A stretch of 39,117 nucleotides of DNA, from contig MTLU01000019.1 in NCBI GenBank assembly GCA_002010975.1, positions 1 to 39,117 on the forward strand. The letters are read 5' to 3'. This DNA comes from Candidatus Bathyarchaeota archaeon JdFR-07 (lineage in GTDB: Archaea; Thermoproteota; Bathyarchaeia; Bathyarchaeales; Bathycorpusculaceae). The notes below the pieces were generated by a model. That model searched no databases and had not been told where the DNA came from. It worked only from the letters and a program-made list of their open reading frames with translations. Below are positions 4,035 through 6,738 of the stretch, piece by piece. Both the position numbers and the translations under genes were made by a program. Position 1 is the first letter of the stretch; the number at the start of each line of letters is the position of its first letter.

Positions 4035-4406
4035 TTATGTTGAAGGCTGAGATACTGGGCTTAAATCCTGTTGAAGTTTTGCCTGCAACTCTTTCATTTG
4101 GGTGCGTAACCTTTCTTCTTGTTTTCCTAAAACGGTGGCTCTGGTATTAAGAAGCTCCTTCCTCTCATTCAGGTCAGTTGTAACTTTCTCCTTTTCTGCC
4201 TTCACTAAAAGCGATCCTATAGCTTTGTATATCACTGCGTCTGCTGCAGTTTTCTGTAATTCGCTTAAAGCTTGTTCGATTTCTGTAAGTTCAAATTCCA
4301 CCTGTTGCTTTTGAGCTAGAACCGATTGTAAAGTTTGCTGAAGCTGCTGAAGCCTCAACAATCTCTGTTGAACCTCAGGTGGAAGCTTTGCAAGTTCATT
4401 ACTCAA
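4035..4406 (-). CDS. pfdB: Prefoldin subunit beta
   Basis: MSNELAKLPPEVQQRLLRLQQLQQTLQSVLAQKQQVEFELTEIEQALSEL: coiled-coil prefoldin beta pattern. Confidence 0.9.
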   Translation of the reverse strand: MSNELAKLPPEVQQRLLRLQQLQQTLQSVLAQKQQVEFELTEIEQALSELQKTAADAVIYKAIGSLLVKAEKEKVTTDLNERKELLNTRATVLGKQEERLRTQMKELQAKLQQDLSPVSQPST

Positions 4407-4566
4407 TTTTTATCCTTCCATCTGCACAGCAATAAGCCAAGCTATTAATTAACATTTTCCCAGATACAATTTCTCAAAAGACCTGTCATTCCAACAAACT
4501 ATTCAAAATTAGATATTTTTTAAATTTATAGCCGCTCTATAAACTTCGCCTTCCGAATAAGTGACA

Positions 4567-5031
4567 TTATTTTATATTAATTCTGCCATATCTTTTAAGA
4601 TACTCTTCAATTTTTGGAAACAGGTCGCTAACTCTTTCAAAACGCTTTTTCGTATTAATTTGGCTTTCAAGCATAATGATATCCCTGGGCTTACTGAAAC
4701 TTTCAATTTTATTGCTTTCTCTTTTTCTCATAATCTTTATGCAATCATCTACTATGCAACTTAAAACGCATGCGCCGCAATAGACACAAAGATCCTCAAC
4801 GATCCCAACTTCTCCGCTTTTCCAAAACAATGCATTGGTGGGACAAGCCTCAATGCATAACTTACACTCTACGCCTTGGCATATCCTTTTGTTAATCGCT
4901 ATTTTTCCATCAACAAAAAACTCTTTGATTCCTAAAGGCGCAAGAAGTTCTTCTCTTTTCTCTTTTTTAGTTTTCCGGGTAGTTTCTGTTAATATTTGAA
5001 AGATATCGACATAATTTTTTTCCTTAGACAT
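4567..5031 (-). CDS. 4Fe-4S ferredoxin-type protein
   Basis: Two Cys clusters: CQGVECKLCIEACPTNAL and CVYCGACVLSCIVDDC. Confidence 0.8.
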   Translation of the reverse strand: MSKEKNYVDIFQILTETTRKTKKEKREELLAPLGIKEFFVDGKIAINKRICQGVECKLCIEACPTNALFWKSGEVGIVEDLCVYCGACVLSCIVDDCIKIMRKRESNKIESFSKPRDIIMLESQINTKKRFERVSDLFPKIEEYLKRYGRINIK

Positions 5032-5169: not shown

Positions 5170-5364
5170 ATGTGTGAATTTACAGTAATTCTTAACAATG
5201 AGACAGTTTTTAAAGATGCAGTTTATGCAAAAGTAGAAAATAACAATGTAATTCTCAAAGATGTATTGGGTAATTCTAAACAATTTGGCAATTGCCAAAT
5301 AATAGAGGTCGATGTTAACAACACAAAAATGGTATTGGCTAGCGTTAAAGAGAAACTATCCTAG
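5170..5364 (+). CDS. CooT-like small nickel-binding family protein
   Basis: 64-aa protein beginning MCEFTVILNNETVFKDAVYAKVENNNVILKDVLGN, matching the CooT-family MCE..V N-terminus and length. Confidence 0.65.
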   Translation: MCEFTVILNNETVFKDAVYAKVENNNVILKDVLGNSKQFGNCQIIEVDVNNTKMVLASVKEKLS

Positions 5365-6183
5365 CTTCTTGTGAAAAGAAAACCAGCTATCAGACCGAGA
5401 AATATTGGAAATGGTAAACCTGGAAATGTGCTTTTCTTCTCTAGCATTTTAAAAGCCAAAAAACAGCCAACCAAAATACCTAATGTAGCAGTCGAACCAA
5501 AGACTAGACCAAAATTAAAAAGAAAATGACCAGAAAGCATAGAATAAAAAGTTAAATCACCTAATCCCATCTGCACATCCTTAAAAGAGAAACCTAAACC
5601 TTTAAGCTGTTCAAGACCTTTATGCGCTATTTTTCCAACAGGACCGTGATAAACAGCAAATATGTCATATACACTCAGAAAACTCAAAATTAAAACGGTG
5701 CTTAAGGTGGGTATTGATACTCCTAAAAAAGCACCTAAAGCCCCTCCTAAAAAGAGAACAACTAGAGTGTGAGTTGCATTGTTTCCTTTTAAAACTGCTA
5801 AATCACCTAAGATTGCTATACACAATGACAAAATTAAAATTTTAATTCCCATTTCGGGTATTGTAAATCTAGAAAATAAGGCGTCTAAATAAACGATTGA
5901 GAGCATAAAAAAGGCTATTGTCAAAGATGTACCAATAACCAAACTTAACACTTTCATATTTTTGTTTTTAAAAAGCAAATACAAGTATTGAAGCACCAAT
6001 TCCAACTAAGAAAATAAAATACAATGCATTACCGAAGGAACCTATTCCTTCAGAAAAAGGAGTTATTTGATAGAGTTCTAAGGGAGACATTGAAAGCAAA
6101 AGTGCACAAAAATTTCCTAAGAGTAAGCTTGCTAAAACAGGTATCAAATGCGCAGTTTTTTGCTTTAAATTTTTCTCCCACAT
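5361..6183 (-). pseudogene. Presenilin/signal-peptide-peptidase-like (A22-type) intramembrane aspartyl protease, apparently split by a +1 frameshift
   Basis: ORF 5361..6005 carries SVYDIFAVYHG and VQMGLGDLTFYS (YD and GLGD catalytic motifs). ORF 5968..6183 supplies an N-terminal TM segment ending IGASILVFAF*. The two frames join across T5A5 at 5965-5974 to give a ~273-aa protein. Whether this is a real frameshift, a sequence error or recoding is unresolved. Confidence 0.7.
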
Positions 6184-6186
6184 TAT

Positions 6187-6738
6187 CTACCTCAGTTTTT
6201 CAATGGCATTTTCTATCCTGAAAAAGCATTGGGTGCAGAATAAACTTTGTTTTCTGTCTGTTTCAAAGATTGAATTAGAAAAATACATAACACAAAAAGG
6301 ATTAACACAGTGTCCTAGCCCTAGAGTGTGCCCAAGCTCGTGGATAGCTTCTTTAACACTTCTTTCCACAAAAAGCTCCTTATCTTGCTTTTTTCCGTAA
6401 AACTCTGGTCGAAGTCTCCATAAAGAGATCAATGCACTTTTTCCTGGACATTCTGCTTCTCCAAAAACAAAATTTAATCCTGAGACAAAAATATCGGCAT
6501 CTACAACTCCTAAAATACGATCAAAAGTTTTCTCTTTCTCTGCTTGCCTTTTAACAAGATTTAAAATAATGTCTGAACGATATTGCCCTCTCACACTGTC
6601 AAAAGCTTCCTCTGGGATCTTCAAAATGTCTGCAATAATTTTACAATCCGCATTGGGGAAAGCCATGATAAGATGTTCTCTAACTCTGTTGAGGACTGTA
6701 TCATCTACTTTTCCTACCCGCAAAATTCCAATTCTCAT
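6187..6738 (-). CDS. amzA: Archaemetzincin (zinc metalloprotease)
   Basis: HELGHTLGLGHCVNPFCVMYFSNS...DRKQSLFCTQC: HExxHxxGxxH plus conserved Cys cluster. Confidence 0.93.
   Translation of the reverse strand: MRIGILRVGKVDDTVLNRVREHLIMAFPNADCKIIADILKIPEEAFDSVRGQYRSDIILNLVKRQAEKEKTFDRILGVVDADIFVSGLNFVFGEAECPGKSALISLWRLRPEFYGKKQDKELFVERSVKEAIHELGHTLGLGHCVNPFCVMYFSNSIFETDRKQSLFCTQCFFRIENAIEKLR

Follow-up and report, generated by a model that had tools for sequence, protein, structure and literature searches.

Presenilin works as two chains following endoproteolysis, and its natural cut lies between the sixth and seventh transmembrane segments (TM6 and TM7). In human presenilin-1 (PF01080), a chain of 467 residues, the YD and GLGD aspartates sit on TM6 and TM7 of a nine-helix fold that also carries a P-x-L-P motif. 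The archaeal PSH from Methanoculleus marisnigri (PDB 4HYC/4HYG; NF041679) is a single-chain GxGD protease that is active without accessory subunits (PMC9282858). With respect to interrupted genes, homology-validated singleton frame transitions are expected to be sequencing errors (Antonov et al. 2013, PMC3711429), and many apparent pseudogenes are assembly artefacts (Cooley & Wright 2024, PMC11017572).

The gene described here encodes a presenilin-like intramembrane aspartyl protease with nine helices, an ordinary member of this known family. It shares with presenilin the two aspartates, the P-x-L-P motif and the fold, but at ~273 aa it is much shorter than presenilin-1, and in this genome it is cut by a frame change. 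Like PSH it belongs to the archaeal single-chain GxGD proteases of similar length and fold; by analogy with PSH, it would probably cut membrane-spanning substrates by means of its two aspartates (YD on TM6, GLGD on TM7). The frame break is a singleton, absent from relatives.

A presenilin-like gene in two overlapping frames

The window, that is, the whole stretch of DNA that was analysed, corresponds to positions 1 to 39,117 of contig C1 in a Bathyarchaeota draft genome (907,597 bases, 43 contigs, 64.6% complete). On its minus strand, the N-terminal ~67 residues of the protease (TM1-TM2) lie in one frame and TM3-TM9 in the next. The features of the locus are as follows.

5361 to 6183, minus strand: presenilin-family (GxGD) intramembrane aspartyl protease gene with one frame change inside, assigned from single-frame homologues of 272-291 aa that span both pieces, the PF01080 match and the AlphaFold structure predicted for the nearest intact relative
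5968 to 6183, minus strand: frame-A ORF of 71 aa with TM1 and TM2, ending ILVFAF and a stop; homology runs to GASIL, and the final four residues (VFAF) are out of frame
5361 to 6005, minus strand: frame-B ORF of 214 aa from TTG at 6005 (ATG at 5957), holding TM3-TM9 with YD, GLGD and PGLP; homology from about YLLFKNKN onward
5982 to 5986, minus strand: stretch holding the frame change, from a profile scan of all switch points and codon comparison; positions inside it are equivalent by homology
5965 to 5974, minus strand: T5A5 tract, which holds the first frame-A stop and by the same scan and comparison is not the site of the frame change
6187 to 6738, minus strand: archaemetzincin (Peptidase M54), the upstream neighbour of the protease gene, in conserved order
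5170 to 5364, plus strand: CooT-like small protein (PF10133), convergent, with a 4-base overlap with the end of the protease gene; in the same place at loci L002 and L031

The earlier note had described a presenilin-like gene at 5361-6183 split over two adjacent frames, together with T5A5 at 5965-5974. All of this was confirmed, the two overlapping minus-strand ORFs lying at 6183-5968 (71 aa) and 6005-5361 (214 aa). The 214-aa ORF alone scored 47.5 bits against PF01080, above the gathering cut-off of 34.3 (54.6 bits for the intact relative L002), and the motifs SVYDIF (YD), MGLGDL (GLGD) and FPGLPFP (PGLP) are all intact. The residues matching the YD, GxGD and P-x-L-P motifs are invariant across eight aligned relatives. 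The N-terminal segment also proved to be part of the gene, as the note had proposed: homologues start ~65-75 residues before MKVLSLVIG rather than at that point.

Structure was predicted with AlphaFold for the intact relative L031 from eight aligned sequences (mean pLDDT 77, pTM 0.77), and the model thus represents that relative and not the broken reading of the window. It has a nine-helix fold, with a Foldseek TM-score of up to 0.82 by query length against human presenilin-1 and of 0.64-0.69 against archaeal PSH. The predicted TM2 helix comprises residues 47-71 of the model, which would place the break inside TM2 and, along the chain, far from both catalytic aspartates (TM6, TM7). By sequence, the profile of the relatives is nearer to human presenilin-1 (52.6 bits) than to PSH (35.1 bits). 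Scores against the archaeal PSH equivalog NF041679 were 24.5 bits for the window ORF and 37 bits for L002, below its cut-off of 125 bits, and both copies also score below the signal-peptide-peptidase model PF06550.

The nearest named relatives carrying the presenilin-like gene are Bathyarchaeota metagenome-assembled genomes. In the nearest of all (G013, locus L031, PIXZ01000001; 74% identical), an intact 273-codon ORF lies in the order beta-CASP metallo-hydrolase, archaemetzincin M54, presenilin-like protease and convergent CooT-like gene, and the window has the identical order. Scans of the window for Rfam families and tRNA genes returned no matches. A ferredoxin-like gene (4567-5031, minus strand) lies between the CooT-like and prefoldin genes; the nearest relative (L002) has no such gene at the corresponding position. 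A 17-codon stretch upstream of prefoldin beta (4405-4455, minus strand) shares 88% identity with its counterpart in the nearest relative. The counterpart is in frame with the prefoldin ORF and the copy in the window is out of frame, which represents either another minor frame difference or a non-coding leader.

Position of the frame change

Every possible switch point between the two frames was scored against the profile of the relatives. The best switch, at 5982-5986, gives GASIL/YLLFKNKNMKV with 35.5 bits, compared to 17.0 bits for the T5A5 join GASILVFAF/KNKNMKV against the same profile. Homologues read GASILYLLLK, and frame B (YLLFKNKN) is already homologous upstream of T5A5, placing the break at ~5982-5986, about ten bases before the tract. 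Codon comparison agrees with this position: ATT TTG TAT CTG CTT TTG AAA in the nearest relative aligns codon by codon with TTG TAT TTG CTT TTT AAA in frame B of the window. No homopolymer longer than TT occurs in the stretch that holds the frame change.

The earlier note had placed a +1 slip at T5A5 itself. This was rejected, since homology shifts frame upstream of the tract, and T5A5 only provides the first stop reached after the frame change. The note had also proposed an alignment of homologues as a check on whether the tract and the break are conserved. Such an alignment shows the break in no relative with the joint readable, and several relatives have CTT TTA AAA at the corresponding place, read through in frame.

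Continuity in relatives, constraint and breaks in draft genomes

In tblastn comparisons, the two pieces align to adjoining segments of a single ORF in relatives. Among 32 distinct relatives, the joint was masked by Ns in one and readable in 31, and all 31 have a single frame running through it, indicating that the split exceeds chance. In 61 genomes of the same family and order, matches lie in open frames of 246-331 aa, except for the window and two truncated fragments of 206 aa and 159 aa. The 159-aa fragment begins with the first base of its contig, and the 206-aa fragment is presumably cut by a contig end; the N-terminal part of the 246-aa frame (G006, locus L021) is shortened by Ns. Apart from the window, all PF01080 matches from 200 genomes of the phylum sit in open frames no shorter than 274 aa. 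Of the 61 related genomes, 21 yielded no match, and 15 of these belong to the 38 genomes with a completeness of 90% or more, which implies that the gene can be dispensed with.

Both halves of the gene are under purifying selection. Compared to the nearest relative, dN/dS is 0.10 for the N-terminal part and 0.18 for the C-terminal part, with 0.125 for the neighbouring M54 gene, although these values are rough because synonymous sites are near saturation. No second lesion was found in the gene, and where the window alone departs from conserved columns, the substitutions are mostly conservative. With constraint on both halves and no second lesion, an old pseudogene was rejected. When lineage-specific changes were counted with the long-contig genome G005 as outgroup, the gene had 33 in the window and 10 in G013; a skew this large or larger occurs in ~10% of 148 genes, and the excess hints weakly at relaxation, if at all. 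An argument for decay from violated conserved columns (8 of 82) was also rejected, as the row included the out-of-frame VFAF and genome-wide comparison left a weak effect.

The background of such breaks was estimated by a strict census of genes intact in two other genomes, amounting to ~120 genes (~100 kb); the rates derive from 722 kb in the present genome, 506 kb in its nearest relative and 0.8-1.2 Mb in another relative. With the nearest relative as query the census missed the window's own break, where the frame-A match ran past the joint, and it therefore undercounts somewhat; the second relative recovered the break. This genome has two breaks in ~120 genes, one in the presenilin-like gene and one with Ns beside it. 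In G013 there are four clear breaks, in aIF2-gamma, uL11, a rhomboid protease and methenyl-H4MPT cyclohydrolase, and in G005 none or one. True loss of the universal genes aIF2-gamma and uL11 is very improbable, indicating that consensus indels occur in such drafts, and no homopolymer longer than four bases surrounds these two breaks. The present break resembles the singleton frame transitions of Antonov et al. 2013 (PMC3711429), being isolated and homology-validated with no conserved shift site, and differs from them in nothing particular.

This genome also contains 34 short N runs in 722 kb. Clusters of isolated Ns, which represent locally unresolved consensus, occur at 39118-39131 of C1 (just past the window end), ~18345 of C6 and ~10870 of C18, and two of the three coincide with frame breaks, one in urocanase and one in a PhoU-domain gene. 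An AAC(3)-family acetyltransferase-like gene at ~21774 of C5 (locus L128), intact in G013, has a frame change without Ns.

Weighing the explanations

In the organism, the gene would most likely be one continuous ORF of ~272 codons, the one-base frame change at ~5982-5986 most likely representing an indel in the assembled consensus. We infer that the gene is functional and that the indel is probably an error rather than a real recent mutation. The singleton status of the break, the absence of a second lesion, the constraint, the intact motifs, the breaks in draft genomes and the N runs all count for this, and the lack of any N or long homopolymer at the break itself counts against it. A real indel is also not improbable, given that this genome has only two breaks in ~120 conserved genes, fewer than its relative. 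It is possible, if short of probable, that a very recent one-base indel inactivated the gene in the strain or species. Such an event is consistent with one clean lesion at a site free of ambiguity letters, the slight excess of lineage-specific changes and the dispensability of the gene, but the gene has no other lesion, its halves remain constrained and its conserved-site substitutions are mostly conservative. Error and fresh pseudogene, both among the causes listed in the earlier note, are the likely two; the others on its list, programmed frameshifting and a two-polypeptide enzyme, have gained no positive evidence.

Programmed +1 frameshifting that fuses the two frames into one protein is extremely improbable. 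Judging from the sequence, TTT TAA A within T5A5 would by itself let a tRNA re-pair one base on, and the fused protein would depart from the family in three hydrophobic residues only. However, the homologous frame change sits upstream of T5A5 and does not coincide with the slippery site, so that the idea loses its site, and wherever the joint can be read, relatives have the gene uninterrupted, several of them reading CTT TTA AAA in frame; neither the break nor a shift site is conserved among them. We consider it very unlikely that an active protease is assembled from TM1-2 and TM3-9 translated as two separate chains. The downstream ORF does have possible starts (TTG 6005, ATG 5957) and all catalytic motifs, and presenilin itself acts as two chains after endoproteolysis, but the natural presenilin cut lies between TM6 and TM7 and not at TM2, the break would interrupt the predicted TM2 helix itself, and this reading was set aside because no relative has such an arrangement. 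Taken more broadly, a real frame change with an active protease obtained through ribosomal frameshifting or assembly of two- and seven-helix chains, peculiar to one lineage, is similarly a very improbable state of affairs. If the break were real, TM1-TM2 would be parted from TM3-TM9.

With a consensus indel as the preferred reading, the frame break matters little in itself, beyond a caution against taking isolated breaks in draft genomes as recoding. Of mild interest is that the presenilin-like proteases of this group fit eukaryotic presenilin models better than archaeal PSH or signal-peptide-peptidase models, and a tree that includes sequences from eukaryotes and Asgard archaea might bear on the origin of presenilin.
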